64,000 nt of DNA from Acidobacteriaceae bacterium (lineage in GTDB: Bacteria > Acidobacteriota > Terriglobia > Bryobacterales > Bryobacteraceae): contig JAFAYL010000061.1 in NCBI GenBank assembly GCA_019240405.1, positions 1-64,000 of the forward strand. Reading direction: 5' to 3'. The translations under genes were made by a program, and so were the position numbers. Below, piece by piece: positions 31,494 to 45,702 of the stretch (positions within the stretch are counted from its first letter, which is position 1; each line of letters begins with the position of its first letter). Under the pieces are notes generated by a model. That model did not search any database. It saw only the letters and a program-made list of their open reading frames with translations, and was not told the DNA's origin.

Positions 31494-34400
31494 TTAGAAT
31501 CGGATCGTCACACTCAAATCCCGGCCCGGGCTAACGGTCGAAGGCGTCCCGGAGCTTGGATCTACATCCAAAGCAATATTCACGGTCAGTGCGGCGTTTT
31601 CCTCAAGCGGTGGGAGAGTGACGCCGTCCACAATATTGGACGTCAGTTCACCAGGTGCGATCGATAGAACCGCTGAATCGCCTCCGTAGGGAGTCCCGTT
31701 CTGTAGAACCGTTACTGTGGTCGTATAGCCCTGTGCTGGCTGACTCAGCGTCGCTCTCAAATCTCGCACGGCGTGGTTCGCCTCAACTAGTAGAGGCGGA
31801 GCGGCATTCTGCTCAGTCGCGAGATAGCCACTTACTTGGATTGAAAATTGCCCACCTGATAAGGTTCGCAGTCCGTTGTCTGGATAAGCTGTGTAACTTT
31901 GACTTGACGCCTGGCTATCACCAAACGAATTTGTCACATAGAGCTGTGCCCCAGCTATCCTGATGTCCGGTAGAGTAACTGTGTGCACGTAATTGTTCGA
32001 TGCTCTATCTTCAAAGAAACCACGCGCGAATGGCAGTACCACTACTAAGCGCTGCAGGTGAAATACCGGCTCGCCAGCCGCGTCTGCAAGAGCTTCGGAA
32101 TTTAGCGCTGACCGCGTCACTTCATAGCTGTTATTTGACGGATCGACGGATATGATTGACATCAACTCACTCCCGACTTGGACAATATCTCCAGGCTCAG
32201 GTTGCGGGTTCGGTATTCCATTCAGGGTGATTATTGTTGAGGTTGCATCTATAGGGGCGGTTAGACTGTAACTGGTAGGCGTATAGAGCTCGTTCCAGGA
32301 GAATAATTGCAAAGTTCCCGTGGAAATTGACGACGTGTTCGTCAGATCGTTAAAGCCGATCCCGAAGATTGTCACGTTACCGCCGCCGGGTACAGCCACG
32401 GAAAAATTTGGAGCACCAGCAACGCCGGTATCTGACTCTCCTGCTCCTAGTGCCCATCGTGTTAGAGGACATAGATCAGGTGTACCTTCTTGGTTAAGAA
32501 CGTTAGCACCGCGCCCTGAGACGTGAATGACCGTCCCGGCCCGGTAAGTGATCTCAAACTGGGCGATGCTTGTCATTGATACAGCGCCGAATTTCCAAGA
32601 ACCTTCCGCCACCACAAACGTACTGCTCAAATCGGGATTTATCGACCAAGCCTGGGTCACAGTGAGCGTTGTCTGATCATTCGCTGCGATCACGCGCTCC
32701 TGTCCACGCCCGGTCCCTTCGATGATGCGGACGACCATTCCGGAATACGCCAAGTTTGTCGCTCCCATATCAGCAGAGCCAATTGAAGTGGCGGAAAAAA
32801 CGGTCGCTGTGAAAGGCCCTGCATATTCGAAACGGTAGTAGAAGTTTGCATGATCGAAGTTGACGTCGGGCGGCCCTGCAGGCTGGGGAGGCAGGCCCGC
32901 ATCACTGAAACCGCTACTCAGTGGAACCTGTGCCGCAATCCGGTATAACATCTGGGGCGTAGTGCCACGATAGATGTTAAACGAAGCCGCCGGCCGTGGA
33001 AAACTCAGTCCGGTTAACGAAACAACATTGTTATTCGATCCGGCCGGTATCATGGCAGGGACAGTGAAGGAGAGAGCACCTTCATTCCCCGCCTCATCAA
33101 CAGCAGTAACCGCATAATACAAATTATTCCCGCCCGCAAGAGAGCCCCCGGTCGTGCTGTATTGGGGGGAAAGGCTGACCAATGGAAGATTCGACCAGTT
33201 GAGACTCGGCTTAGTGGGCTGGGTGAAACTCACGGTTAGAATGTCAGTGGCCGCTCCGTCACTCTCAGTTTGAACTGCGTCCGTAATATTGAAATTAAAG
33301 TACTCAAATTCGCCATTTGCATCCAGATGAGGGGTCACCCCAATTAACGGCCGCGGCATCTGGTTTTCGCTGCCTGTTTGTCTACCTGCTCCGCCTAACA
33401 CCGTGGGATTATCGCTGTACCAATCATCATCGTGAATCTGCGCCAATACCGTGACGAGTTGATAATTCATTGACGGGGAAAGTTTCACAACGCGCAAAGG
33501 TACGCGTGAAAATCCTTCCTTTAAATAAGTAAGCGCTATGATATCGCCAGGCCGGACCTTGAGCGCGCGAAAACTGGTTTGGAACTGGACAAAGAGATTG
33601 CCCTTAGTCGATTTATCTAACTGCCGAAGCAGAACTCGATTTGCCTGGCTAAAATTTGCGACCCCCAAAGCCGTGGATTGGCTGCTGATCTCATATCCGA
33701 TCAGTCCGGCATCATCCGCGTCGACGACCGTTAGACTATCCTGCTGGTACTCGTTCGATTCGTCTTGAAATTCTACGCTTAACCGATTTGATGTTTCCGC
33801 GATACTTCGGGAGCTCAGTCTAACCGTCGAGCCCCCGTTTGCGTTTCGAACGATGCCCGAAAATGGTCCCGCAGCATCGCTGAATTCGTAGGCTGGCCAA
33901 CCTCCGTTTAACGGTTCAGTACTGTTTCCGCCATCCGGCAAAGTGGGCTGTTGCGCGGCGATCGTCGTCTCGGGCAGCAATTGTAACAGGCCTGTCGGTC
34001 CATATCGCAGCATCAGACTCGAGGCGACTCGGATGCCTCGCACTATCGTTGCCGCGCTTTGCCGCTTCGTCAGAATCAGATTGCATTCGAATCTGGGTAC
34101 TTGAATATCGTTGCCATTTAGATCGGTTGTGTTGATTAGAGTACTGCAGAACTCGGCAGCTGAGCTGAACGATTGGAGGTCTAAATCCGAAAGTGACCAG
34201 CCGCACCTTCTAAGAAGATCGAGAATTACCCATGCGGGATTATTCGTAAACGAAGTGGATTGAAACACACCGTCTGGAGTGTACGAATCAATTTGCATTC
34301 CTTGTAGAAGTACTTCCACGGTTGGAAGACTTCGTCCGCTGCTGATGCGGTTGGGAACAACAATTGAAGCTGCAGAGATGCTTCCGTACGGATCGCCCAA

Positions 34401-35459
34401 AGGCTGTCCATTGGAATCCGTGAAGTCCAGATTGAAGCTCCCTGCACGGCTGCCATTCGTGAAGACGTTGTACCAACCAGTGGTGGTCATGTTCTGAGCC
34501 TGAACCGCTTGAGGAATTTCTACGTCATTGACAACTACTTTCAAAACGTTCTGGATTGTTCCCATACCCAGAAGAACTTCCATGTGCGTGAGATTACCGT
34601 CGTTTCGCGCAAATATGACGGGCGCTTTCAACCATCCAGTCCCATAAACGATCGGAACCGGGTCGTTGTATTTTGCTGAGTTGTCCAGAAGCGGCGAAAC
34701 GTGGGACGTCTTATCCCCTGAAGTCCGCACCATAATCGCCGAGGGAACAAATTCGAATCCGCCAAACCGCCTGGTAACCCTGCCGGATTGATCAATATCG
34801 AACATTCCTCGCTGCTGGCACTGCGTTCGCGAAAGATCACAAGAAGTAAATGGCTGCCCAGCATTTAGGTTCCCCACGCCCCCTGGGATATCCGCAGAAT
34901 ATCCACAGCGATAGAACCGCGAATATCTACCACTGGTTCCCCCGTCTTTAGCTTCTGACCTTTGCTCCTGGTTGACGGGAAAGTTCCAGGCACACGAGCG
35001 TTGGACTCGAACTTCGGGTAAAGGTATTCGCTGTAGACTCAGCTTATTAGTAAAGCTCAGTGTCAGTGCATCTTCAGTGATTTCGTCGGGATCACCCGCG
35101 ATTCCTCGAAATAGAACCGTGCTCTCAGTAGTAATTGTTTGATTCTGCAGGTCAGCAAACGCAAAATAGACAGTAAGTTGAGATCCCTTGAAGCCCATGC
35201 CGGCATTGAGTTCCGAAAGAGCCGAATCCGCATTCGCTAATGTAAGCGAAAGCTGGGATAGGCCATCCATTGCATCATCTGCGGATAACTGAAGATCAAA
35301 TAAATTGTGCTTGAGAATCCTTGCGGAATACGGTTGTCCATTAAATACGAGGGAGTGCGTACTCCAGTTTTCGATATCGCCAGACGGCAAAATGCACTGG
35401 AAAAATAAAAGGGGCGTATCGCTTTCGGCAAGTTGTTTTATGTCGTTGATCGTCCCCAT
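31494..35459 (-). CDS. Phage tail hub / host-specificity protein with Fe-S type Cys motif
   Basis: A 1321-residue baseplate hub and fibre protein. Residues about 1-150 resemble the DUF2163-type tail hub. Cysteines 156, 185, 207 and 214 (FYRCGY; CDLSRTQC) followed by RRFGGFEF match the pattern of the iron-sulfur site in lambda gpL-like tail tip proteins, with a longer insertion between the first two. A long central hub region follows. A fibronectin-III-like domain (about 780-890) contains NIYRGTTPQMLYR. Beta-rich modules to the C-terminus probably form receptor-binding parts. The start has AGGAAC 5 bases upstream. It closes the structural operon. Confidence 0.85.
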   Translation of the reverse strand: MGTINDIKQLAESDTPLLFFQCILPSGDIENWSTHSLVFNGQPYSARILKHNLFDLQLSADDAMDGLSQLSLTLANADSALSELNAGMGFKGSQLTVYFAFADLQNQTITTESTVLFRGIAGDPDEITEDALTLSFTNKLSLQRIPLPEVRVQRSCAWNFPVNQEQRSEAKDGGTSGRYSRFYRCGYSADIPGGVGNLNAGQPFTSCDLSRTQCQQRGMFDIDQSGRVTRRFGGFEFVPSAIMVRTSGDKTSHVSPLLDNSAKYNDPVPIVYGTGWLKAPVIFARNDGNLTHMEVLLGMGTIQNVLKVVVNDVEIPQAVQAQNMTTTGWYNVFTNGSRAGSFNLDFTDSNGQPLGDPYGSISAASIVVPNRISSGRSLPTVEVLLQGMQIDSYTPDGVFQSTSFTNNPAWVILDLLRRCGWSLSDLDLQSFSSAAEFCSTLINTTDLNGNDIQVPRFECNLILTKRQSAATIVRGIRVASSLMLRYGPTGLLQLLPETTIAAQQPTLPDGGNSTEPLNGGWPAYEFSDAAGPFSGIVRNANGGSTVRLSSRSIAETSNRLSVEFQDESNEYQQDSLTVVDADDAGLIGYEISSQSTALGVANFSQANRVLLRQLDKSTKGNLFVQFQTSFRALKVRPGDIIALTYLKEGFSRVPLRVVKLSPSMNYQLVTVLAQIHDDDWYSDNPTVLGGAGRQTGSENQMPRPLIGVTPHLDANGEFEYFNFNITDAVQTESDGAATDILTVSFTQPTKPSLNWSNLPLVSLSPQYSTTGGSLAGGNNLYYAVTAVDEAGNEGALSFTVPAMIPAGSNNNVVSLTGLSFPRPAASFNIYRGTTPQMLYRIAAQVPLSSGFSDAGLPPQPAGPPDVNFDHANFYYRFEYAGPFTATVFSATSIGSADMGATNLAYSGMVVRIIEGTGRGQERVIAANDQTTLTVTQAWSINPDLSSTFVVAEGSWKFGAVSMTSIAQFEITYRAGTVIHVSGRGANVLNQEGTPDLCPLTRWALGAGESDTGVAGAPNFSVAVPGGGNVTIFGIGFNDLTNTSSISTGTLQLFSWNELYTPTSYSLTAPIDATSTIITLNGIPNPQPEPGDIVQVGSELMSIISVDPSNNSYEVTRSALNSEALADAAGEPVFHLQRLVVVLPFARGFFEDRASNNYVHTVTLPDIRIAGAQLYVTNSFGDSQASSQSYTAYPDNGLRTLSGGQFSIQVSGYLATEQNAAPPLLVEANHAVRDLRATLSQPAQGYTTTVTVLQNGTPYGGDSAVLSIAPGELTSNIVDGVTLPPLEENAALTVNIALDVDPSSGTPSTVSPGRDLSVTIRF

Positions 35460-35468
35460 TTATTGTTC

Positions 35469-36263
35469 CTAAATTGCCGTTTCGATGCTGAACGAAGTGG
35501 AAAAGAGATTCGGACGTTGTGCGACTACAGTGAGTTCGTTTACTCCCCAATGCGCGTTCGCATAGATGCCACCTACTTGCGCCGTTGGTCGATAACGGGA
35601 CGGTGCTATCTGCGGTTCTAGCTGTAATCCATAAAGATTCGCGCGCTGGCCTGCAGGCAGGCTTACAGCGATCGTGAAATTCGAGTCAGTGTCACTCAAC
35701 TGACCACTTGAAATTACGCGATTCCAGCTGGGACCTATAGCAACACTCGTGCTTTGAATCGAAGTGGCTCGCCGGATCAATGTGATGTTGGTCGGCTCGG
35801 CGCTGCTCGCATAAAGCGAAAAGCAGTACATGTAGCTTGCGGGCACAATCATCGTCTGGCTAATCTCTTGATCAGCTTGCCCGGCGTTCGTGACCGCGAA
35901 AGCTGACGAGCCTCCTTGAGGATCGGCGACACCAGAGGTCAGTTCCATTGTGCTCACTCTCTGCCAAACCGATGCTGTCAAATCAGAGCTGGAGACTAAC
36001 ATGTTGTCCGTTGGATCGATAAACGTAAAAGCGTGGAAAGGGCCAATACAAGCTTCGAAATGTTCCTGAATCGCCTGTAGTTCGACGGCAGACAAATCAG
36101 AGTAAGTCAACTCCCAAATTAAACGCCCCCCATATGGATCGGAATATAAGACCATACTGCCGTCTGGGAGCACATTCCTGACCGTCCGGGCTAATCTTAT
36201 TTTTCTAATCGGGTATTGCGCAACAGCCCGCTGGGCGAGTTGTGGAAAAAATAAGTTAGCCAT
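35469..36263 (-). CDS. Distal tail protein (DUF2460-like) with carbohydrate-binding-like module
   Basis: A 264-residue tail protein. Residues 1-95 parallel the neighbouring 119-residue protein (GGRLIWELTYSDLSAVELQ, then FHAFTFIDP), the DUF2460 style of GTA and siphovirus distal tail proteins. Residues about 100-210 look like a jelly-roll carbohydrate-binding insertion (ending NLYGLQLEPQIAPSRY), often found on phage tails for attachment to surface sugars. The C-terminus returns to the tail domain. It overlaps the upstream gene by 8 bases. Confidence 0.75.
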   Translation of the reverse strand: MANLFFPQLAQRAVAQYPIRKIRLARTVRNVLPDGSMVLYSDPYGGRLIWELTYSDLSAVELQAIQEHFEACIGPFHAFTFIDPTDNMLVSSSDLTASVWQRVSTMELTSGVADPQGGSSAFAVTNAGQADQEISQTMIVPASYMYCFSLYASSAEPTNITLIRRATSIQSTSVAIGPSWNRVISSGQLSDTDSNFTIAVSLPAGQRANLYGLQLEPQIAPSRYRPTAQVGGIYANAHWGVNELTVVAQRPNLFSTSFSIETAI

Positions 36264-36615
36264 TAGCTTCTATTACCCATAATGAAGTCGAGTTGACATC
36301 CTCACCTACGTATTCGGTGACTAGTCCTGGCGCGCCGATTCGGCAATTCGGAACATCATTGCCGGTAAATGGGTCCGGAAAGACAAAGGATGAATAGTCT
36401 CCCTGCTCGGACACAAAGAACGCCTCTAGTTGCTGAATCTCCTGATTATTCAAGAGATCCAGCCGGATTTCCCACGAGCGAAAAACTCTACCCTGCACAA
36501 GGAACCGCTGATCCGATCCATCAAGGAATCGAATCACTTGCGTAGCTTGGCCGCTGGTAAGCGGAGCTGGGTATTGGGTGATCGCTCCAGAGCTAAGAAA
36601 GGGAAAGTCGGCCAT
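36256..36615 (-). CDS. Short distal tail protein (DUF2460-like)
   Basis: A 119-residue protein directly after the tape measure gene. VFRSWEIRLDLLNNQEIQQL followed by DYSSFVFPDPF is the compact DUF2460-type core seen also at the start of the next gene. It is probably the ring that ends the tail tube or joins it to the hub. Having two such genes in tandem suggests duplication followed by gain of a carbohydrate-binding module in the second copy. It starts 2 bases after the tape measure stop. Confidence 0.7.
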   Translation of the reverse strand: MADFPFLSSGAITQYPAPLTSGQATQVIRFLDGSDQRFLVQGRVFRSWEIRLDLLNNQEIQQLEAFFVSEQGDYSSFVFPDPFTGNDVPNCRIGAPGLVTEYVGEDVNSTSLWVIEANG

Positions 36616-36617
36616 AA

Positions 36618-37268
36618 CTAAAGTTCCGCAATAACGTCGTTAAGTGAACTGGAATTCAAAATCGCCGTTTTTACCGACTGGGCAATTTGGGCGCTCTGCG
36701 CCTGTATCCAATAGGTATCTGGTCCAGATCCGCTATTTTGGCTTCCTCCAGCCGATCCGCCGATGCCACTCGACTGGACCGCATTTCCCTGGTACACGCT
36801 ATTGCCTGTTGCGCTGACATAAACCGTCTGTTGCTCCGAGGCTGGTAGTTGAAACTCGACTAGCGGAGGGAGCGTACTCTTGGCTCCCCCTCCGAATAGG
36901 CCTACAATGCCGGAAATCAGTGACCCCAGCCCGCCAATTCCTCCGAAACTTCCAGTAAATGCGCTCGCGATTCCGCCCGATGCCGTCTGCTTCAGTAAAT
37001 TGGTCCATTCGCTACCGGAACTCGAGGCTTTTTGGCTCGAAGAGGAGGGTCTGCCGAACTTAATACCTTCCGGCGTAACCTTCCCGCCCATTGAAGCTCG
37101 ACGCGTATCTCCTAAGCGTGGAAGAGTCGGGTTTTTTTCGGTATCTGACGCGCTAGCCTGCCCAACCAGGTTGGTGGGCGAAAACAATAAACCGCTCTTT
37201 AGTCCTCCACTTTTTGTTCGCGACAATTCGCTCAAGATACCTGATAAGTTATTTTTCGACTTCCCCAC
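36618..37268 (-). CDS. Very short tail tape measure protein (putative)
   Basis: Position between assembly chaperone and distal tail genes, a hydrophobic glycine-rich segment (about residues 85-125, GGIASAFTGSFGGIGGLGSL) and helical ends suggest the tape measure. The GTG at 37266-37268 is chosen since GGAG lies 7 bases upstream; it overlaps the chaperone extension by 20 bases. At 216 residues it is far shorter than in most siphoviruses (600-2000) and near the 219 residues of the R. capsulatus GTA. By the usual ratio of about 0.15 nm per residue the tail would be only 30-40 nm. The assignment rests on position more than sequence. Confidence 0.6.
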   Translation of the reverse strand: MGKSKNNLSGILSELSRTKSGGLKSGLLFSPTNLVGQASASDTEKNPTLPRLGDTRRASMGGKVTPEGIKFGRPSSSSQKASSSGSEWTNLLKQTASGGIASAFTGSFGGIGGLGSLISGIVGLFGGGAKSTLPPLVEFQLPASEQQTVYVSATGNSVYQGNAVQSSGIGGSAGGSQNSGSGPDTYWIQAQSAQIAQSVKTAILNSSSLNDVIAEL

Positions 37269-37979
37269 GCTGCTTCTCCACTTGAACGGCCTCGTCAAGA
37301 ACCATGAGCGCCTCGGCCGCCTTAGCATTCATGGACAAAACGTCTGTTCCTCCGAACTGCTTCCACACCTTGAACTGCTCGATAAAATACAAGCTCTGTG
37401 CCGTAATCACTGATTTGGGGCACTCTGACGAAATCACTCCCCCTCGAGCCCAAACTGCTCTCGCGCATTCAGGTTCTTTGTTCTTCACCCAAGCGCAGTT
37501 TCTAATTCGGACCAGGCCGCCCGATCGGCATGTGTCGCAATTCCACGCGGCCGGCGAGGAAAACTGGAAATGGAACGCGACTAATAGTTTTTTCGTTCGT
37601 CTTCAGACAGCCCAAGCTCGCTACGGATGTCCGCAATAATCTCGTCGCTGAGTGTTTCCGGACCTTTCTCTATGAGCAATTCCACATTCGCCGACTGTGA
37701 ATCAATTGTTAGTCCTGTAAGCTCGGCGAGACCCCACTCCAAATAGAGTCGTCTGACCAGTAAGTCAACAAGCGTTCCCTCGAGCTGCTCTGGCGTCTCG
37801 CCCGCTTGGAGGAATTCTTGTTTCAAAGAGAGCGCGCGGGCTCTTTTCGTCAATTCGATTCGCTGCTCTAGCGAAATACGCCTGGTTGCATATTTCACCC
37901 CTGGAAGCGCTTTACTCTCATGCCAAGTCACGCTTGTGTAACAACAGCTTTTATGCAAACGCGATGGAAATTTCATCAT
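37249..37979 (-). CDS. Tail assembly chaperone, -1 frameshift product (GT-like)
   Basis: Ribosomes slipping back one base at A AAA AAC (37593-37587) would read on from 37587 in the -1 frame to the stop at 37249-37251. The fusion has 131 residues from the first frame plus 112 from the second (243 in all). The second frame has no usable start before a GTG at 37488, yet is open with no stop from the slip site, and the upstream part encodes conserved-looking residues (WNCDTCRSGG). Cysteines CDTC, then NC, EC and EC could bind zinc. Lambda gpGT is the precedent; the extension recruits tail tube subunits to the tape measure. Confidence 0.75.
37534..37593 (-). promoter_or_regulatory. Programmed -1 ribosomal frameshift signal
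   Basis: On the minus strand, the heptamer A AAA AAC occupies 37593-37587 in exactly the zero-frame register required for tandem slippage. Five bases later starts a stem: GTCGC (37581-37577) pairs with GCGAC (37538-37534), and TTCCA (37575-37571) pairs with TGGAA (37545-37541), separated by a small 1x2 internal loop and closing a 25-base GC-rich loop. Spacing of 5 bases between heptamer and stem is optimal for stimulation. Confidence 0.75.
37581..37979 (-). CDS. Tail assembly chaperone (G-like, unshifted product)
   Basis: A 132-residue helical protein between the tail tube and tape measure genes, the standard place of lambda gpG-type chaperones. The ATG at 37977-37979 is preferred (AAGGA seven bases upstream); it overlaps the tail tube gene by 29 bases. 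The body (ISLEQRIELTKRARALSLKQ, then GTLVDLLVRRLYLEWGL) is charged and helical. The last codons, CGA AAA AAC TAT TAG, contain the slippery heptamer three codons before the stop. Confidence 0.75.
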   Translation of the reverse strand: MMKFPSRLHKSCCYTSVTWHESKALPGVKYATRRISLEQRIELTKRARALSLKQEFLQAGETPEQLEGTLVDLLVRRLYLEWGLAELTGLTIDSQSANVELLIEKGPETLSDEIIADIRSELGLSEDERKNY

Positions 37980-39120
37980 CCGAAGTTCCTTGCGCCCGAT
38001 TGTTCTTGAACTCCCAAAGTAGTCTCGTCTCCGAGTCGTTATAATTCGGGATCTCCGGCACAACATTGGGAAGGAAGATACCCATTAATTGACCCTGCTG
38101 TTGGCCAAGCTGCAGCAATGCTGAAATACTGTTACGCAACTTCGCCGCCGCGTACAGGGCGGAGGTTTGAGCATCACTTTGCGCTAACAGCGTGAAATCG
38201 CAGTTCACAATACGCGCTCCTGGTGCAAGTGCTCGTGGATACGAGGTGCCGAATTCCTTATTCCGAACTTCGATTTGGTTGTTTACTCCAATTGTTGCGC
38301 TCGTTAGTGTGAAAACCTGGTTCACCGGACTCCCCAGCCATACCTCACCTAAGTGCCCTGGAACGATTGAATAGTCGAATGTGGACAAGGCCGGTTCTTC
38401 TGGAAAGCTACTTAGGCCTCCCATCCCAGGGTTGAAACTGCTCGAGTCAATAAGATCGGCCGCTGGGCCGTCAAACATGAACTGGTGATAATCGCCATTG
38501 ACCGCAATGTCGAGGCTATTGGCTGCCGCTCCCGTGACGATGCGGCTCACGGCACTTAACGGATCCCAGTAATCATAGAGAGTCACACTTGGTAAGGCAG
38601 TGGACAAACCATATGTAATCGCTGGAGCCAGCATCGCATTTTGATTCGGCGTAGACGAAAATGGCGCAGTAACGGTAATCGTTACTGGATCTGAAACGCT
38701 TGTCACAAATCGAATTTCGTTGCTAAAGGAAACGGCCTCCCCAAACGCGAGCCCGTGTGGTGTGGCGGTTTTCAATTGCGTGGCAGTTTCCATCGACGCT
38801 ACCAGCAGACCACTGTTCATCTGAGGCGAGGCGCCAAGTGCTGAATGAAACAGAGGTCCGTAAGAAGGCTGCCCTGCTCCGGTCCATGAAGTCAGGTAAG
38901 TCCGAACTTGGAATGCAGTATCGCGGCGGGCATTTCTTGACGTACCGAGAAACGTCCGTGTGCCGGTCTTATCAAGTCGTTTGCCAGGCTGCATTAGCTG
39001 TTGAGCTTGAAGCCGCGCCGCCGGAAACCTATTCGTCGCATCGATAGTAGCCGCTTGACCATAGGCTGTTTCCTCGGCGACATAAAACCGATTCGCATTC
39101 GATGAGATGTAAGTTGCCAT
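37951..39120 (-). CDS. Major tail tube protein
   Basis: A 389-residue protein that would polymerise into the tail tube. The start FYVAEETAYGQAATIDA is common at the N-terminus of siphovirus tail tube proteins, and the rest is beta-rich. Residues about 120-165 (TVTAPFSSTPNQNAML) may form an Ig-like insertion. Position after the tail terminator and before the assembly chaperone supports the call. AGGAC precedes the ATG. The 3' end overlaps the chaperone start by 29 bases. Confidence 0.75.
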   Translation of the reverse strand: MATYISSNANRFYVAEETAYGQAATIDATNRFPAARLQAQQLMQPGKRLDKTGTRTFLGTSRNARRDTAFQVRTYLTSWTGAGQPSYGPLFHSALGASPQMNSGLLVASMETATQLKTATPHGLAFGEAVSFSNEIRFVTSVSDPVTITVTAPFSSTPNQNAMLAPAITYGLSTALPSVTLYDYWDPLSAVSRIVTGAAANSLDIAVNGDYHQFMFDGPAADLIDSSSFNPGMGGLSSFPEEPALSTFDYSIVPGHLGEVWLGSPVNQVFTLTSATIGVNNQIEVRNKEFGTSYPRALAPGARIVNCDFTLLAQSDAQTSALYAAAKLRNSISALLQLGQQQGQLMGIFLPNVVPEIPNYNDSETRLLWEFKNNRAQGTSDDEISIAFA

Positions 39121-39130
39121 GATCGTTGTC

Positions 39131-39628
39131 CTAGTTACGGCTCACATTCAGGTTGCAGGTTACTTTTGCTGATCCAGAATAGCCGAGCCCCCCGACTCTA
39201 GGCGCTTGGAAGCTGACATCATAGACACCCGAAAAGAAAATACCGTCACCCCAGTCGCCGATATTTTGGCGCAGAATATCGGTCATCGCTTCCACATAGA
39301 AGTGAATCCACTGATCCGTTTCCTGAAGAAGATTCGAACTTGCCCAGAGTTCAACGGTTACAGAAATCGTTCCCGATAAAGACCGGAATTTTTCAATTTG
39401 GGTATTCTTTAGGCCAGCGCAGTAGATGGAGATCCGTGGGTAAGTAAACTGAAGATCTTTATCGGCCATGTCAGCGCTTGCCGAGCTGAGCACGATTTGA
39501 TCTGGACTTATAACCGGCAGCGTCACGTTTGATGACGTTGCGATTGCATTAATCTGCTGAGACAGTGCATTCGCGTTGGTCAATAAGTCCGAGACCTTCT
39601 GAGCAGCTAGGAGTGTTAAGGGCGGCAT
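39131..39628 (-). CDS. Tail terminator / minor tail protein (putative)
   Basis: A 165-residue protein located between connector and tail tube. The pattern of an N-terminal helix (LLAAQKVSDLLTNANALSQ), central beta strands (RISIYCAGLKNTQIEKF) and WIHFYVEAMTDILRQN resembles tail-terminator proteins that cap the tube beneath the head. No strong sequence signature was recognised, so the call depends mainly on position. GAGGAT precedes the ATG; it starts 3 bases after the connector stop. Confidence 0.55.
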   Translation of the reverse strand: MPPLTLLAAQKVSDLLTNANALSQQINAIATSSNVTLPVISPDQIVLSSASADMADKDLQFTYPRISIYCAGLKNTQIEKFRSLSGTISVTVELWASSNLLQETDQWIHFYVEAMTDILRQNIGDWGDGIFFSGVYDVSFQAPRVGGLGYSGSAKVTCNLNVSRN

Positions 39629-39631
39629 TTT

Positions 39632-40411
39632 TTATCCTCGTTGACTCAGTCTTGGAAGCACGATGTAATAATTTGGCTGTTGACCGCCCGAAGCTTCCGG
39701 CCCATCCACTAGGCCGGTTCCGGGAAGCTGCCACGTTGAACCAATCTGAAGTGGGGCTGTGTTTTGGCGGGTCAACTGGTCTTCGGTCGTCCCGGCGTAC
39801 ACGTTCCAACCCACTGCAGCACTTGGCGCATTAAGAGCGCCTTCCGCCATGGCCACAGCTATGGTGCTTGCCCCGTTGAGGATCAGCCCGTTCACGGGAC
39901 TCACCGCGCTTTCAGTTCCACGGCTGTCAACCCAAGTAGTTTCGATAAACATCGCAAATGCTGGCGAGGTCCCATTTTGTATCGAAACTAAAGGCATGGC
40001 AGGCCTAGGTAGCGGGTTGTACACGATTCCCAGGCCCGACATGAATACCAAATCGGACGCCTCAGCAGCCTCGTTCTGATACTCCGTCCACTTGCCTTGA
40101 AACCGTGTGTTCAATTGAACGTTATATGCCTCAGCAAAAAATCGAGAGAGCGACTCGAAGCACACCCAACGTTGCAGCACGGGCGTCACGACGACCGTCG
40201 ACAGCCCAAGAAGACGGCGCTTCAGATACTGAGGATCCGAGGCGCCCGCTCTAAGTAGCCAAAGCAATAATTTGTCGCTGACTGCATCGGTAGCTAACTT
40301 AATCTTGGTGTCTACGTTGATCCCGTGCGAAGAAGCGACCTGCACTAGGGACGTTTCAAACTGCAGAAGATCGTCTAAAGTTACGATTTCGGCATCAGTG
40401 AACAGAGCCAT
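39632..40411 (-). CDS. Head-tail connector with C-terminal Ig/FN3-like domain
   Basis: A 259-residue protein. The helical N-terminal half (about 1-115, DAVSDKLLLWLLRAGASDP and FAEAYNVQLNTRFQGKWTEY) looks like a head-tail adaptor of the gp6/gp15 kind. The C-terminal half (about 135-245) is an FN3/Ig-like domain containing NVYAGTTEDQLTRQ, very similar to NIYRGTTPQMLYR in the hub protein. This would place a surface-exposed module at the neck of the particle. GGAG lies upstream of the ATG. Confidence 0.6.
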   Translation of the reverse strand: MALFTDAEIVTLDDLLQFETSLVQVASSHGINVDTKIKLATDAVSDKLLLWLLRAGASDPQYLKRRLLGLSTVVVTPVLQRWVCFESLSRFFAEAYNVQLNTRFQGKWTEYQNEAAEASDLVFMSGLGIVYNPLPRPAMPLVSIQNGTSPAFAMFIETTWVDSRGTESAVSPVNGLILNGASTIAVAMAEGALNAPSAAVGWNVYAGTTEDQLTRQNTAPLQIGSTWQLPGTGLVDGPEASGGQQPNYYIVLPRLSQRG

Positions 40412-40417
40412 GACACG

Positions 40418-40756
40418 CTACTCTCCAGTTGTGCATGGATCTTCAAGCTGAGCTGCAATATGATGCTTTATCTCGCTATCGTTGATAATTGCGACTTGCA
40501 CTCGTCTCGCTAACTCAGCCTTCTCGGCAGCCTGCCTGGCGTTCGCTTGTTTCGAGCGATAGAGTTCCTTCTCTTCTTCACTGGCCAGCACCGCTCGCCC
40601 TTCGACGATCATTTTGGCTGCCATTTCCCTAGAAACCTCTGAGATTAGTCCCTGCTTGCCACCGTCTGGTGTCTCAAGGCTTACGACAACTGGAAATCTC
40701 TCGGGTAAGCTGGCTTCAACTTGTCTCAATTTTCGAAAGTACTGTTTCAAATCCAT
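40418..40756 (-). CDS. Small structural-cassette protein of unknown function
   Basis: A 112-residue protein between coat and connector. The ATG at 40754-40756 is preferred because AGGAG lies 6 bases upstream; a longer frame opens 14 codons earlier. The N-terminal half is mixed alpha/beta (RFPVVVSLETPDGGKQGLIS); the C-terminal half is a charged helix rich in Ala, Glu and Lys (YRSKQANARQAAEKAELARR). It might be a head completion or decoration factor, but no family was recognised. Confidence 0.5.
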   Translation of the reverse strand: MDLKQYFRKLRQVEASLPERFPVVVSLETPDGGKQGLISEVSREMAAKMIVEGRAVLASEEEKELYRSKQANARQAAEKAELARRVQVAIINDSEIKHHIAAQLEDPCTTGE

Positions 40757-40822
40757 GGGATCTCCTAAAATTAAGGGAGCCAGAAATGGCTCCCACAAGC
40801 TCGAGAGAGTGAATGCTGCCGG

Positions 40823-41734
40823 TTAGCTGTTAACCTGAACGGCGAAGTTGTTGCGCAACACCCCGGTCCCGTAGAGCACGTCGACTGTGAACTGTTGAGA
40901 AAGGGTGTTCGGCTGATAGCTCATAACCACTCGAAGTCCAAAGTTGCCCATTTCCGCATGTTCAGCGATTGCGCCAGTCCCAGGAAGAGGTTGCGGTAGT
41001 CTCCGGATTACCAGTCCAATCGCGTCGCGTGTGAACGCGAGGTTGTGCGTGTTCGGATTTGCCGTGCCGGTCGTTGGCACGTATTGAGATCGGAAAATAA
41101 AGAAGTCTTTGATCTTGCCTACGTTGCCTTCCACCAAAGCACGTAATCCCGCCTCTCCAGCTGAATAGTATTCACTGAAGCGTGGAATCTGGCGAATTTG
41201 TGAATACGTACTCGAATCCACAACCAAATACTTCGGAGCGCTGGGCGGCACCTTTGCAGCAAATAGTGCAGTTTCCGCGGCGTCAATGATTGCTTCCGTC
41301 ACTGGCGTTCCCGCCGACCCGACTGGCGTATTCGCCGTGAACTGCCCGTAGAGGTTCAGCAAGTCGCTCTCGACCCGCTCAGCGATCGCAACCACAGCCG
41401 GCTGCATATACGCCTTCAGCAACTCAGGAAAGGCCAGCGCTTTTGTGACATCGGGAATCTGAAACGTCGCTTCAGCGTGCGTGTTCAGAACGATTTGCGC
41501 ATTTCCTAAATTGGGGTTCTGCGGTGTTACTGTGCCACCTTCAGCAATGTTATTAGCGACCAGCGCCGGAGGAATAGGGATATTAACCGTATCTCCGGCA
41601 TGAGCCAGAACCGGCTCGTAGTCACGGTTCACTAGGTTGCCCATAACGAGATTTCCCATTAGGGCCGGCAATGCATCGGCAGCAACAAGCTTTACGATCG
41701 CATTTGCCAAATTGGCAGACGTAATTATTGACAT
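40823..41734 (-). CDS. Major capsid protein, P22-coat-like
   Basis: A 303-residue shell protein. LVNRDYEPVLAHAGDTVNIP (about 34-53) followed by strand-rich repeats and the C-terminal FGLRVVMSYQPNTLSQQF agrees with coat proteins of the P22 gp5-like group of the HK97 fold. No N-terminal delta domain or protease site is evident, in line with a separate scaffold gene and no protease gene. AGGAG lies 6 bases upstream of the ATG. The 116-base gap to the scaffold gene holds no other frame. Confidence 0.8.
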   Translation of the reverse strand: MSIITSANLANAIVKLVAADALPALMGNLVMGNLVNRDYEPVLAHAGDTVNIPIPPALVANNIAEGGTVTPQNPNLGNAQIVLNTHAEATFQIPDVTKALAFPELLKAYMQPAVVAIAERVESDLLNLYGQFTANTPVGSAGTPVTEAIIDAAETALFAAKVPPSAPKYLVVDSSTYSQIRQIPRFSEYYSAGEAGLRALVEGNVGKIKDFFIFRSQYVPTTGTANPNTHNLAFTRDAIGLVIRRLPQPLPGTGAIAEHAEMGNFGLRVVMSYQPNTLSQQFTVDVLYGTGVLRNNFAVQVNS

Positions 41735-41850
41735 AAATCTCCTAAATTAAAATCAGATTTGTTCTACGTTTGAGTCACTTACACGCGCAAAGCCTCCGCT
41801 ACGTGCTCAACAGCACCCATCAAAGTCGCTGCGCAATCTCGATTATTTTG

Positions 41851-42435
41851 CTAGGCGCCTCGCAATGCCTGTGAGGCCAGCCGCGCAATTTCCTGGCGTA
41901 CGCGATCAAGATCGTCTGGGTTCATTCCAGGCTTGATCTTGTCAATCTCGATACCAGGTGATCCGCCTTGCCCACCCTTTCGCGGAATCGGCTGCACACC
42001 GCTCCCGCCGGCAATTCTTGCCGGAAGGAGCTCTGGGTTCTCCTGCACGAAGCTTGTTAAGTACTCATGCAGTGACTTCCCCTCCGAACCGCGCGCCTGT
42101 AAGCGGCCATCCTCGGCGCGTATAATGTCGTCCCTAATCGCGCGAAATGCCAGATCCACTTTCGCGACTCCAAGCCGCTGTAATTCATTACGGATTTGCG
42201 AGCTTCGATCGGCTTCTTCCGCCGCTGCCCTAGCGCTTCGATTTTCCTCTATTAGCTGGTTTAATCTGGCTTCCAGGCTTTCCCGCCGCTTCCGCTCATC
42301 TTGTAATTCGGCCTTGTAAGCCGGTTCAGCCTTCTGCTGCTCAGCGTGAACGAATTCTTCGATTGCCTGCCGGACAACGTCGCGGACCTCAAGCCCACTT
42401 ACTACCTGGTCACTGATAGGCTTTTCCTCAGACAT
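41851..42435 (-). CDS. Capsid scaffolding protein
   Basis: A 194-residue, highly charged helical protein directly before the coat gene. Residues about 20-85 form a coiled coil (AYKAELQDERKRRESLEARL), followed by a conserved-looking helical block (LAFRAIRDDIIRAEDGRL and EYLTSFVQENPELL) and a flexible Gly/Pro-rich part with a basic-helical C-terminus (DLDRVRQEIARLASQAL), which could bind coat subunits. This layout is typical of scaffold proteins. AGAGGAGAAG precedes the ATG. Confidence 0.75.
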   Translation of the reverse strand: MSEEKPISDQVVSGLEVRDVVRQAIEEFVHAEQQKAEPAYKAELQDERKRRESLEARLNQLIEENRSARAAAEEADRSSQIRNELQRLGVAKVDLAFRAIRDDIIRAEDGRLQARGSEGKSLHEYLTSFVQENPELLPARIAGGSGVQPIPRKGGQGGSPGIEIDKIKPGMNPDDLDRVRQEIARLASQALRGA

Positions 42436-42456
42436 AACTTCTCCTCTGCATCTAAT

Positions 42457-43878
42457 TCACGTTTGCGTGTTGATTTCTTCTGCAATCTGATCCTTCGTTT
42501 CTTGGCGAAGATCACTTAGAAACTTGAACGCAAGTCTCTGAAAGATTTGTCGCTTTAAAGTTGGCGACTTAATACCGAGCTGAAGTAGATTTGTCGCCTC
42601 TTGTAACTCGGTTCCAAAGTCTCCAATGTCCAGCTCGTCTAACCCCGAGACTGACACCACCAATCCATCCTCCCGGGCATCGCTCACCGCTGTTATCACC
42701 TTTTTGATTGTGTCTTTAACCATGTCTCCATAGCCGCGCAACACCTCTTTGGTAATCGTGAAGTCAAGCTGTTTGCTTGCGGCGGATTGGGCATGGCCAC
42801 CCACCATCTCGCCTGAGGCCTGCGCCAAGTAGCAAACCCGGTACATCTCTTCTTTGAGAGTCTCGAGATTTTGCGCGGCTATCTGGTACACCTTGCCCTC
42901 GGGTTCCGTCCACCCAAAGCGATCCTGGGGCCCAAGTTGGATGTAGTAACTTTCACCCACGATTTGATTCCATTCGCGGTCTGAATAAATAACGGGCATT
43001 GCGAATAAGCCCATTCCGATCGCCCATCCAAGCGCGTTCGATTTATTGAAATGTTCCAGTTGAAGTTGAGCAGCCTTGTTCATCAGCCACAAACCATCGC
43101 TCACCTGCATAGTCAGCAAGGGCACCCGTCTTTGCCGCGCCAGCCCGTGAGAGCCATGAGCGATCAAATCGATCTTTGCGGGCTTGCTCGTCCCTATTCC
43201 TTCGAGCAAAGGAAACGTCGAGCCGGGATTCGCTTGTTCAATGTTTTTATAAGTCCGATATTCTGTTTTGTCGAAGTAGTACCAATACGTCTCTTGAACA
43301 AGCTCCGGCGACTCAGGACTAAGCTGCCGCTCAATTGTCTGCTTCAGCACTATCCACTCAAATTCGCCGCGCCCGTCTAAGCTCCAGTTGATGAGATCCT
43401 CGGCCGAATAACGAACGAGATATGCCCGCGACAAACCACCCGCATCCTCTTCGGCGCGATTCGCCGGAGGACGCGCGGCGCGCGGGAAGTCAATCAGAAT
43501 ATGGCTGCGGCCGGCGATCAGCGTATCTGTGAAAGTTCGCTTGAAAAACTCAGTTAGGCTTGTCCCTCTTAGATCACAATCGTCCGCCAAGGTAGCCAAA
43601 AAACTCTGGCCTGCTTCGTTCCCGCCATAGAACTGCAAACTTGGCGCCCGGCGGAACAATGTCGCCGAATACCAATCAACAATTGAACCGATATAGTTTT
43701 CATAAAAGACCCTCTGCAGACGCTCACTGTAGACATCGAGTGGCTCCTTCTGGCGCCGAAGCAAGTATTCCGCCGCCCTATATTTGAATTGCTGTCCACC
43801 TGCGTAAAGGTCGCGATATGAGCGCCACATCAACTTGTGCCGCTTGTAATCCGGATGCTCCCGGTCGATATCAGTCAT
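42457..43878 (-). CDS. Phage portal protein (DUF4055-like)
   Basis: A 473-residue protein expected to form the 12-fold ring through which DNA enters the head. YSERLQRVFYENYIGSIVDW, then DLRGTSLTEFFKRTFTDTLI and RSHILIDFPR are features of the DUF4055 portal group; the helical C-terminal part (after about 330) would form the stem and crown. It lies between terminase and scaffold, the standard position, and starts 41 bases after the terminase stop. Confidence 0.8.
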   Translation of the reverse strand: MTDIDREHPDYKRHKLMWRSYRDLYAGGQQFKYRAAEYLLRRQKEPLDVYSERLQRVFYENYIGSIVDWYSATLFRRAPSLQFYGGNEAGQSFLATLADDCDLRGTSLTEFFKRTFTDTLIAGRSHILIDFPRAARPPANRAEEDAGGLSRAYLVRYSAEDLINWSLDGRGEFEWIVLKQTIERQLSPESPELVQETYWYYFDKTEYRTYKNIEQANPGSTFPLLEGIGTSKPAKIDLIAHGSHGLARQRRVPLLTMQVSDGLWLMNKAAQLQLEHFNKSNALGWAIGMGLFAMPVIYSDREWNQIVGESYYIQLGPQDRFGWTEPEGKVYQIAAQNLETLKEEMYRVCYLAQASGEMVGGHAQSAASKQLDFTITKEVLRGYGDMVKDTIKKVITAVSDAREDGLVVSVSGLDELDIGDFGTELQEATNLLQLGIKSPTLKRQIFQRLAFKFLSDLRQETKDQIAEEINTQT

Positions 43879-43919
43879 GTCTTTCCTTTGCTTCTTTGCG
43901 TCCTTTTACTCGCTGGTAA

Positions 43920-45245
43920 CTAAAACAAGGGCCGGTTCATCTCGCCTGTTGTTAGCTTTTCACCAAACAGCGCCCAAACCAGATATCCGAGCGCGTCGGA
44001 GGCATGAGTACGCCGCAGATCGCGCACTTTATCAATCACGCCCGAATCCGGTTTAAAAATCACTTCTTCGAAGTCTTTAATCAATTCTTTGCACCGCGCA
44101 TCCACTTCCAAGCGCACTTCGCCTACGGCGTTTGTCAATAACCCGTTCACCTTTTGGACCCTGCTCAGAACCGGCGGATTCTTCTGTGGCACGCGCAGCC
44201 GAACGCTTCGGAATCCCGCGCGATAGAGCGCACCCTGCAGCATCGTGTAGTCCGATGTCCCAGTCGTATGCATACTTCTCCCGCTCGCATCACCAAAAAT
44301 CTCTAAACCCACCGGATGATTCCTGTATCGGTTCTCGAATTCGAGACCGGCTTCCTCGGTCGTTGCTCGGTCCAGGACGATCTCATCAATGGCCACGAGC
44401 CGTCCATGATGTTCCTGAGCCAGCACGGAACTCATAGGCGCCACGTTGAAATCAAGCGCCCACAACAGCGGCTTGGCAGGGTCATAGGCCTGCTGAACTA
44501 CATGCACTGCTGCATTAAAGCAGTGATAAACGCGATCAGCCCGGCGGTTCAGATACTCGCCCAACACTTCCTGTTGGTAAAATTTCGGATCGTAACTGGT
44601 TTCCAGCCTCTCGTAATAATCCGGCGTTCTCTCCAGCAGAAAGCGATTTTCAAACGGCCGTGCGCGGACACATTCGTAACCCAAAACCGGTTTATCGATA
44701 AACCGCTTATATATCCAGTCGCGTCCCTGAGGAGTCCACACCCCAAAGCCGCACAACTTCTCCGCTTTCGGGTCCCGCAAACGAGCCTCTAGCCGAAGCC
44801 ACGCCTCCTCTCGCGTATAGGAGAGTTCGTCAATTCCGAACCATGCGAGGTTCGTTCCTCGCAACCGTTCTGGCTCGTCTAGAGAACGCAGCAGAATCAT
44901 TGTCTCGGGACCTTTGATCGTCAGCTCACCATCGGCTTTGCGGTGCTCATATTCAATCTCTTGCTCCTCCATCACCCCGAAGAGGCCGGCTAACGTGGCG
45001 TCTCGCAGCATCGCGAATGTAGGAGCCGCCAACAATCCCTGTCTACCCCGGTTTACGAACGAAAGGCGCACGGCTTCCGAACACAGCGCCGCACTTTTTC
45101 CAGATCCTACAGGCCCGGAGAATCCTTTCAGCCTCGCCTTGAGCCCTTCAAATACGCTCTGCGAAGGCAGGGGCATCCGTGGCCAACAAAGTTCTTCACT
45201 TGGCAGCTCGCTCAAATCCGCTTCGCTGCTCAATTCCATCCGCAC
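43920..45245 (-). CDS. Terminase large subunit
   Basis: A 441-residue packaging motor. The ATPase part has Walker A GPVGSGKS (44-51), Walker B LAWFGIDEL and coupling region further on. The C-terminal RNase H-like nuclease shows the first Asp in LLWALDFNVAP, the second in IFGDASGRSMH and the third in THASDALGYLVW, so all catalytic acids are present. An intact motor is significant, as dead prophages often lose it. No recognisable small subunit precedes it; the divergent 88-residue HTH protein could fill that role. The start is uncertain between GTG 45245 and ATG 45239; no clear ribosome site is seen. Confidence 0.85.
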   Translation of the reverse strand: MRMELSSEADLSELPSEELCWPRMPLPSQSVFEGLKARLKGFSGPVGSGKSAALCSEAVRLSFVNRGRQGLLAAPTFAMLRDATLAGLFGVMEEQEIEYEHRKADGELTIKGPETMILLRSLDEPERLRGTNLAWFGIDELSYTREEAWLRLEARLRDPKAEKLCGFGVWTPQGRDWIYKRFIDKPVLGYECVRARPFENRFLLERTPDYYERLETSYDPKFYQQEVLGEYLNRRADRVYHCFNAAVHVVQQAYDPAKPLLWALDFNVAPMSSVLAQEHHGRLVAIDEIVLDRATTEEAGLEFENRYRNHPVGLEIFGDASGRSMHTTGTSDYTMLQGALYRAGFRSVRLRVPQKNPPVLSRVQKVNGLLTNAVGEVRLEVDARCKELIKDFEEVIFKPDSGVIDKVRDLRRTHASDALGYLVWALFGEKLTTGEMNRPLF

Positions 45246-45435: not shown

Positions 45436-45702
45436 ATGATCGGTCCTGACGATTTCGATCCTCTCGCCCCCCAGCGCGAAGCGGCCGTGTTTTACGGTCT
45501 CTTCCTGCGCGGCCATTCGGCGGACGATCTTCGTCGCGATATCGATGTACCCCGGCCGGTGTTGGACAAATGGCTCCATCCTCGACGCTATGAGACTAGC
45601 TTCAGGAATTCATTGCGAAACATGTACACCTATCGCAAGCGAGTGTTGGCTATTTTCGATGAACTGGTCTTGAAAGAAAAACATCGCGTGCGCATCCATT
45701 AG
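45436..45702 (+). CDS. Small HTH protein divergent from terminase
   Basis: An 88-residue protein. GHSADDLRRDIDVPRPVLDKW (about residues 30-50) reads as a helix-turn-helix, followed by a basic helical tail (FRNSLRNMYTYRKRVLAIF). It is transcribed away from the packaging cassette and into the phzF-like gene (24 bases apart). It could regulate the cassette through the repeats in the shared upstream region, or act as a small terminase subunit, many of which are short proteins with an N-terminal HTH. Neither role is shown by the sequence. Confidence 0.6.
   Translation: MIGPDDFDPLAPQREAAVFYGLFLRGHSADDLRRDIDVPRPVLDKWLHPRRYETSFRNSLRNMYTYRKRVLAIFDELVLKEKHRVRIH

Follow-up and report, generated by a model that had tools for sequence, protein, structure and literature searches.

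The locus analysed here raises the question of whether a predicted -1 ribosomal frameshift signal in a head-tail gene cassette is a working element and what its preservation tells about the cassette. Such a locus would otherwise be filed as a prophage or a remnant, and it belongs to a phylum, the Acidobacteria, for which neither gene transfer agents (GTAs) nor domesticated prophages were found in the part of the open-access literature that was covered. The frameshift is of a textbook kind, yet it serves as a conservation test of function, and the element carrying it is what lifts the case above routine. The coordinates of all features in the window, i.e., the whole stretch of 64,000 nt that was analysed, are given in Table 1.

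Re-reading of the sequence confirmed the heptamer, its register, the spacing of five bases, the stem, and the 112-codon extension down to 37249, all of which an earlier note on this DNA had described. Around the site, the minus strand reads GAC GAA CGA AAA AAC TAT TAG, the zero-frame stop lying one codon past the heptamer. As the -1 frame is closed upstream of the heptamer by a TGA codon (37605-37603), a -1 shift must fall between this TGA and the TAG. Re-read from 37587 onwards, the -1 frame revealed 112 sense codons followed by TAA (37251-37249), with 117 codons in the whole open frame. Alignment with relatives points to GTG 37898 as the most likely start of the zero-frame gene; the mechanically determined ORF start (38066) falls within the upstream gene. 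Based on this arrangement and on the comparison of related loci, we favour the reading that a probable tail assembly chaperone gene contains a functional -1 programmed ribosomal frameshift of the type known from lambda G/GT (probability of about 0.93). The frameshift is well supported by comparison, ordinary in kind, and exceptionally well conserved, thus a known kind of signal in a new lineage.

Table 1. Positions of the frameshift signal, its coding segments, and the surrounding cassette in the window.
Feature	Position	Strand	Basis
Slippery heptamer A_AAA_AAC, zero-frame register	37587..37593	-	window sequence; A_AAA_AAY in 123/124 genome loci and 94/94 further loci with extension
Zero-frame stop TAG	37581..37583	-	window sequence and locus comparison
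Spacer of 5 nt (TATTA)	37582..37586	-	5' arm tested at fixed offset in 124 loci
5' arm of likely stimulatory stem, extension codons Val-Ala-Phe-His	37571..37581	-	folding and covariation
3' arm of stem with one-base bulge, extension codons Trp-x-Cys-Asp	37534..37545	-	folding and covariation
Zero-frame G-like part, likely tail assembly chaperone, 105 aa, likely start GTG 37898	37581..37898	-	alignment of 106 sequences including the window; between tail protein and tape measure
-1 frame T-like extension, 112 aa after the slip	37249..37587	-	alignment of 121 sequences including the window; dN/dS 0.18 beyond the stem
Tail protein	37951..39120	-	PHROG 290 'minor tail protein' (1.1e-8); in 123/124 loci
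Short tape measure protein, 216 aa, likely GTG start overlapping the extension end	36618..37268	-	profile of 93 short ORFs
Whole head-tail cassette, about 13.8 kb	31494..45245	-	family matches and gene order

Comparison within the host family revealed the extension in 124 of 150 genomes, with one match each and a second, weak match in genome G100. At these 124 loci, the heptamer was A_AAA_AAC in 119 cases and A_AAA_AAT in four, always at the same place and in the same register, while one locus (L067) had neither. The zero-frame stop followed the heptamer directly in 105 loci, one codon later in 17, and after 33 and 45 codons in one locus each. Another 120 loci were examined (116 from IMG/VR and four genome stretches), of which 94 had the extension (93 from IMG/VR and L432); all of these displayed AAAAAAC at the same register, with 89 distinct signals. 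Since the extension of one of them, L394, is identical to that of the window, these further loci are not fully independent of the genome set. In the same clusters, AAA accounts for about 25% of Lys codons and CGA/AGA for about 16% of Arg codons, and A_AAA_AAY was encountered elsewhere in frame only nine times in 424,546 codon positions, so that its presence in 123 of 124 loci exceeds chance. Homologues without the heptamer, with the heptamer in another register, or with an interrupted second frame, which the earlier note had named as the pattern speaking against its prediction, hardly occur. In L067, GAGAAAC stands in place of the heptamer (L067:8023-8121), with the second frame open and most stem letters intact, due to either an error or a real loss. 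L131 (6507-6605) possesses the heptamer, but its extension stops after 60 codons and the similarity goes on in another frame, which may be a sequencing error or a real break. Apart from L131 and from L137, which is cut by a contig end, the extension comprised at least 100 codons (122/124). With the signal retained by nearly all relatives, it looks real, and the cassette looks like a maintained part of these bacteria.

These counts also bear on the possibility that the cassette is a decaying prophage remnant in which the heptamer occurs by chance. In its favour, the 13 named genes between 31494 and 45245 include none recognised as an integrase, lysis or replication gene, although four of them, among these the tape measure, could not be assigned to a family of known function. 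However, besides the retained heptamer, median dN/dS values were 0.085-0.198 in 10 cluster segments, and stops within the best aligned stretch were seen in at most two hits for any of 11 genes (breaks that split a hit would be missed), which leaves the remnant reading a practically negligible chance. The dN/dS values are also in line with the argument of the earlier note that such a control feature would be lost quickly if the genes were dead.

Both coding segments of the two-frame gene are under purifying selection, with a median dN/dS of 0.12 for the zero-frame part (57 pairs) and of 0.18 for the extension beyond the stem (27 non-independent pairs). For all dN/dS values, the most closely related pairs of each gene were used, up to a maximum of 60, with protein identities of 68-97% and dS of 0.1-2; these pairs are not independent. 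In 121 aligned extensions (L067, L131, and L137 were left out), A4, W15, C17, C20, R21, R29, C31, W46, C56, and P57 were invariant, and the four Cys residues (C17, C20, C31, and C56) likely form a metal-binding site. The alignment of the zero-frame part comprised 106 of the 124 loci; most of the 18 others had no start codon near the expected place, and L052 (run of N), L067 (heptamer lacking), and, by choice, L075 and L137 were also left out. Instead of forming a fusion, the extension could be a separate gene translated from its own start by re-initiation after the zero-frame stop, and indeed a GTG (37488) lies within the extension frame of the window. Yet in 23 of 124 loci the initial 45 codons of the extension contain no ATG, GTG or TTG, and in 106 such a codon is missing upstream of the invariant Trp. 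The conserved residues start right after the slip, though the stem constrains them there too, and a separate gene would leave the heptamer without a reason to be kept; we therefore regard re-initiation as extremely unlikely and retain the frameshift.

The predicted stem of 11 bp opens 5 nt past the heptamer. Folding of the window RNA resulted in a minimum free energy (MFE) of -16.5 kcal/mol (z -1.04), and 26 of 200 shuffled sequences folded at least as well, so that the window sequence alone gives no excess over chance, while the comparison of loci does. The pair between the third base of the Ala codon and its opposite base (A3-K3) was canonical in 96 of 124 loci, compared to 65.6±3.9 after shuffling, and the pair between the first base of Val and the third base of Asp (V1-D3) in 104, compared to 75.6±3.3 (G-C 79, C-G 13, A-T 5, G-T 7). 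For the second bases of Val and Asp (V2-D2) and for F1-K2, 120 (114.0±0.9 shuffled) and 122 (116.9±1.1 shuffled) loci were canonical, respectively. These shuffles ignore the relatedness of the 124 loci, and invariant pairs are uninformative. The variable pairs thus covary over the loci, as a stem kept among homologues should. We also considered a longer stem, but the next three pairs were canonical in 60, 50, and 28 loci, compared to 54.9, 53.0, and 28.3 after shuffling; the conserved stem therefore seems to end after 11 pairs. Joint parsimony on the tree of the 124 loci revealed 12 double compensatory changes among 142 stem events (two for F1-K2, one for A3-K3, four for V2-D2, and five for V1-D3), with V1-D3 broken on 14 branches and A3-K3 showing 11 breaks versus 21 restorations; the outside pairs revealed seven such changes among 204 events, with 34, 29, and 5 breaks.

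Since both arms of the stem are coding, base pairing couples amino-acid choices: across one pair of stem codons, we found Val-Asp in 79 loci, Leu-Glu in 13, Ala-Gly in six, Ile-Asp in four, and other combinations in 22, including Val-Glu in nine and Leu-Gly in four (n = 124). At the level of folding, the median z of the 124 loci was -1.07 (Wilcoxon p of about 1e-18, the sequences being related) and the mean MFE was -20.4, compared to -18.4 in neighbouring control windows (sd 5.4). The lowest-energy folds contained at least eight of the 11 stem pairs in 83 loci and none in 18. Stimulatory RNA structures typically begin 5-8 nt downstream of the heptamer (PMC4066793), and the stem of the window falls inside this spacing. 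Overall, the covariation makes a stimulatory stem at 5 nt likely, with modest thermodynamic support. A Shine-Dalgarno-like stimulator upstream of the heptamer was rejected, as such motifs were present in 60 of 124 loci and thus rarer than predicted by synonymous codon use (200 resamplings, mean 80, minimum 68).

The site consists of consecutive A residues, six in most loci and more in L077, and polymerase slippage on A runs is known in bacteria, so that mixed mRNAs could arise and the frame could be changed by transcription and not by the ribosome. A covarying stem at 5 nt and an exact X_XXY_YYZ register in 123 of 124 loci are, however, expected of ribosomes rather than of a polymerase, and the A run ends in C or T and is seldom longer; we thus consider polymerase slippage very unlikely and ribosomal frameshifting the better explanation.

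Given the observed conservation of heptamer and register, the covarying stem, and the selection on both coding segments, the slippage itself, its rate, and the chaperone role, all of which are inferred, may be pictured as follows. Most ribosomes would stop at the TAG and release a G-like chaperone of 105 aa. A minority, with AAA and AAC of the heptamer in the ribosome, would be delayed by the stem 5 nt downstream and slip back by one base, the two tRNAs re-pairing with AAA and AAA, and translation would then continue for 112 codons, giving a fusion of the G-T type. If the proteins act as in lambda, the tape measure would be coated by the G part and tail-tube subunits would be recruited by the Cys-rich T-like part.

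Frameshifts of the dnaX type use A_AAA_AAG with a Shine-Dalgarno-like stimulator and a stem. The site of the window shares with them an A-rich heptamer followed by a hairpin, but it carries AAC instead of AAG, and upstream Shine-Dalgarno-like motifs are not enriched. Lambda G/GT, which uses G_GGA_AAG, and its counterparts in other tailed phages resemble the two-frame gene in their location between the tail tube gene and the tape measure gene, in a short zero-frame product and a longer -1 fusion, and in a slip near the zero-frame stop. Differences are the heptamer A_AAA_AAC, the covarying 11-bp stem, the Cys-rich extension, the lack of a described family, and the very short tape measure of the window. 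The roles of lambda G and GT have been described (PMC5009743). A_AAA_AAC is also the g-t frameshift site of the haloarchaeal virus HCTV-2 (PMC5009743), i.e., the same heptamer in the same kind of gene, but in an archaeal virus, the comparison covering heptamer and gene type. The insertion-sequence cluster A_AAA_AAC_1 is a proven case with no established stimulator (PMC4066793); there the same heptamer is used by bacterial ribosomes, but in an insertion-sequence gene.

The choice of heptamer raises a question of its own, as the lineage uses A_AAA_AAC and never A_AAA_AAG, the second codon being AAG or AAA in none of the 124 loci. In E. coli, A_AAA_AAG slips best and A_AAA_AAC much less (PMC5009743), and the shift from AAC to AAA is less readily tolerated by bacterial ribosomes (PMC4066793). 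ARAGORN detected one tRNA-Lys(UUU), one tRNA-Lys(CUU), and one tRNA-Asn(GUU) in the host genome, where RF00005 matched at 47 places. After a slip, a CUU tRNA that had read AAG would pair badly with AAA and might thereby make slippage at AAG less efficient; an Asn-tRNA on AAA would be mismatched too. As a side observation, a selenocysteine tRNA was predicted in the host genome (L313; G000:C57:53828-53919).

With respect to the gene product, no described chaperone family matches by sequence, so that its assignment as a likely tail assembly chaperone was made from the position of the gene, its two frames, and a distantly related prophage. Tail chaperone genes commonly, though not always, contain frameshifts (PMC8601537, phage RcZahn). 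Neither half of the window's gene matched Pfam, PHROGs or NCBIfam, and the relatives resulted in scattered single-member matches with E values no better than 0.0065, both alignments being compared with PHROGs and that of the extension also with Pfam. In phage records, the extension had a single match (E 0.3) and the zero-frame part had none. Structure models were good (pLDDT of 91 for the extension and 86 for the zero-frame part), though Foldseek found no match at E <= 0.001 in the PDB for either half or in BFVD for the extension. A haloarchaeal 'tail assembly chaperone' (R4TML7) at rank 19 of the BFVD search with the extension (E 6.6) counts as no evidence. Best Z values from VIA-align were 4.9 for the zero-frame part and 2.8 for the extension, which is in the range of common arrangements.

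The two-frame gene sits between the tail protein gene, whose product we regard, from its position, as the tail tube (major tail) protein, and the tape measure gene, with order and spacing conserved. Behind the extension, 93 of 120 loci with a gene at this place passed a length and position filter; their open frames have a median of 226 codons (range 180-269), and their profile recognises the protein of the window with an E value of 1.4e-32, though the latter has no PHROG or Pfam match of its own. The same profile matched residues 991-1124 of a 1145-aa ORF in L431, the second locus of G100 (E 3.8e-11). The homology of the short tape measure to the C-terminal part of one of about 1145 aa suggests tail shortening; with about 220 aa, a tape measure would be expected to set a tail length of roughly 30-40 nm. 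Gene order, two-frame layout, and tape measure homology thus support the term tail assembly chaperone gene used in the earlier note, with no family match by sequence; its comparison to long-tailed phages holds for -1 slippage at the same place of the operon, while the label may not fit given the unusually short tape measure of 216 aa. As judged by eye, the window's tape measure lacks the VQAMDSRSFLDHS-like motif of most relatives.

Locus L431 (L431:2515-18590), a related prophage, is a second, longer-tailed relative of the cassette. Its coat protein is 67% identical to that of the window, and the genes for connector, tail, distal tail, and a J-like protein could be recognised and follow one another as in the window; portal and terminase were unmatched within the sequence stretch examined. 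Its extension-like match reached E 1.1e-5, and the junction next to the tape measure of about 1145 aa reads CTA AAA AAC, so that A_AAA_AAC stands at the same chaperone junction, followed by a possible 8-bp stem (by eye). L431 is possibly close to the ancestral phage type.

The cassette encodes the large terminase subunit (TerL), a portal, a scaffolding protein, a P22-type coat, three proteins without a family of known function, which by position may be connector or tail-completion proteins, the tail protein, the chaperone, the tape measure, two DUF2460-like proteins, and a J-like protein. No protease, small terminase or lysis gene was recognised in the cluster. Matches found per loci reaching far enough (reach being estimated from the layout of the window, hence ratios over 1) were 96/93 for TerL, 106/103 for the portal, 109/105 for the scaffolding protein, 109/107 for the coat, 104/109, 113/110, and 113/112 for the genes encoding 126, 259, and 165 aa, respectively, 123/116 for the tail protein, 120/118 and 119/118 for the DUF2460-like genes, and 116/116 for the J-like gene. 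The tape measure, which is too variable for one query, resulted in 57/121. All genes lie on the same strand in a fixed order, with median distances within about 100 bases of those in the window.

Flanking genes in the window are of chromosomal type (SSF symporter, M24 peptidase, and a PhzF-like gene). An additional gene of unassigned function, represented by L045_D0, is located about 10 nt behind the J-like gene in 65 of 105 loci (that of L045_D0 and 64 others), and all its ORFs except one share the strand of the cassette. The window has no L045_D0-like gene and carries the symporter gene there instead, on the downstream side of 31494. Other downstream neighbours of the 105 loci were an ABC-type ATPase (22, by eye) and the M24 peptidase of the window (12; 17 of 103 by direct search). 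An 88-aa ORF divergent from TerL (45436-45702), which looks helix-turn-helix-like by eye, was examined as a candidate regulator. It was dropped, since it had no good family match and, of the other 123 loci, L095 alone contained a relative at E < 1e-3. The relative in L095 is 59% identical and lies at the other end of the cassette.

To place the cassette relative to its hosts, we compared the tree of five concatenated cassette proteins with that of a single host gene, rpoB. From 86 loci with full clusters, five genomes without an rpoB match and eight with partial ones were left out, resulting in 73 genomes (for G083, which has two rpoB-like matches, the copy on contig C56 was used). Distances were correlated (Mantel r 0.68, at most 0.175 in 999 permutations), and 30 of 70 splits were common to both trees, compared to at most two in 100 label shuffles. 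Among well-supported splits, 20 of 29 in the rpoB tree recurred in the cassette tree and eight conflicted with it, while 12 of 41 cassette splits conflicted with the rpoB tree. Inheritance thus appears mostly vertical, the trees being broadly, though not fully, congruent.

The conflicting splits would also suit an ordinary temperate phage that repeatedly infects the host family, with the frameshift as a normal phage signal, as would the longer-tailed related locus in G100 and the listing of clusters as viral by IMG/VR. Against this stand the single copy in 124 of 150 genomes, the splits held in common with rpoB, the fixed gene spacing, the recurrent chromosomal neighbours, and the finding that no IMG/VR locus lay on a contig of more than 22.6 kb (among the best 80 of 596 loci matching the coat and 38 loci matching the extension). 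We therefore regard repeated infection by a phage as unlikely, though by no means far-fetched. The switch should matter only if tails are assembled, and it is kept in almost every genome of this large soil family that has the gene, which makes the cassette a strong candidate for a maintained particle, possibly a GTA. As judged from genomic data, it is probably a domesticated, GTA-like element rather than a free phage, and the signal would be kept because the host lineage still makes short-tailed particles. Chances seem about even for the more specific reading that it represents an unrecognised GTA (viriform) lineage of the acidobacterial host family, derived from a siphophage by reduction of the tape measure from some 1145 to some 220 residues while the A_AAA_AAC frameshift with its amino-acid-coupling stem was kept.

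The GTA RcGTA has a tape measure of about 220 aa and includes a protease, a small terminase, and a lysis gene. Like RcGTA and other GTAs, the cassette is a compact chromosomal head-tail cluster with host-congruent trees and a short tape measure; it differs in its P22-type coat and scaffolding gene, in belonging to another phylum, and in having no recognised protease, small terminase or lysis gene. With regard to the definition of GTAs (PMC9662315), caudoviricete-derived particle proteins are represented, as far as genes tell, by portal, TerL, P22-type coat, J-like, and scaffolding proteins; mostly vertical inheritance or co-diversification was seen in 73 genomes with one host gene (rpoB). Endogenization may be reflected in the chromosomal-type flanks of the window and in the recurrent neighbours. 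The string 'acidobacteri' is absent from the accessible text of PMC9662315 and PMC11841831. Acidobacterial prophages have been described, including decayed ones for Solibacter, with no such element named in the relevant parts of that report (PMC5900883). In peat-soil viromes, 94 contigs match known GTA types and some viruses were linked to Candidatus Solibacter, the sections concerned proposing no acidobacterial GTA (PMC6172770).

Within the order of the host, the extension was detected in 35 of 41 genomes of the host family, in both genomes of family f88, and in one of 18 of family f89. Across 396 genomes of the phylum, the matches listed included two weak ones outside the host family (at most 11 candidates scored per genome, with limited sensitivity). 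L170/L430 (G292) harbours a two-frame gene with A_AAA_AAC before a tape-measure-like gene (by eye), with no similarity to other cassette genes, while L171 (G256) looks like a chance match and was rejected. In another family of the order (G550), L432:4790-8312 displayed extra ORFs between the genes for the tape measure and the distal tail, including an ORF of 601 aa that looks beta-helix-like by eye.
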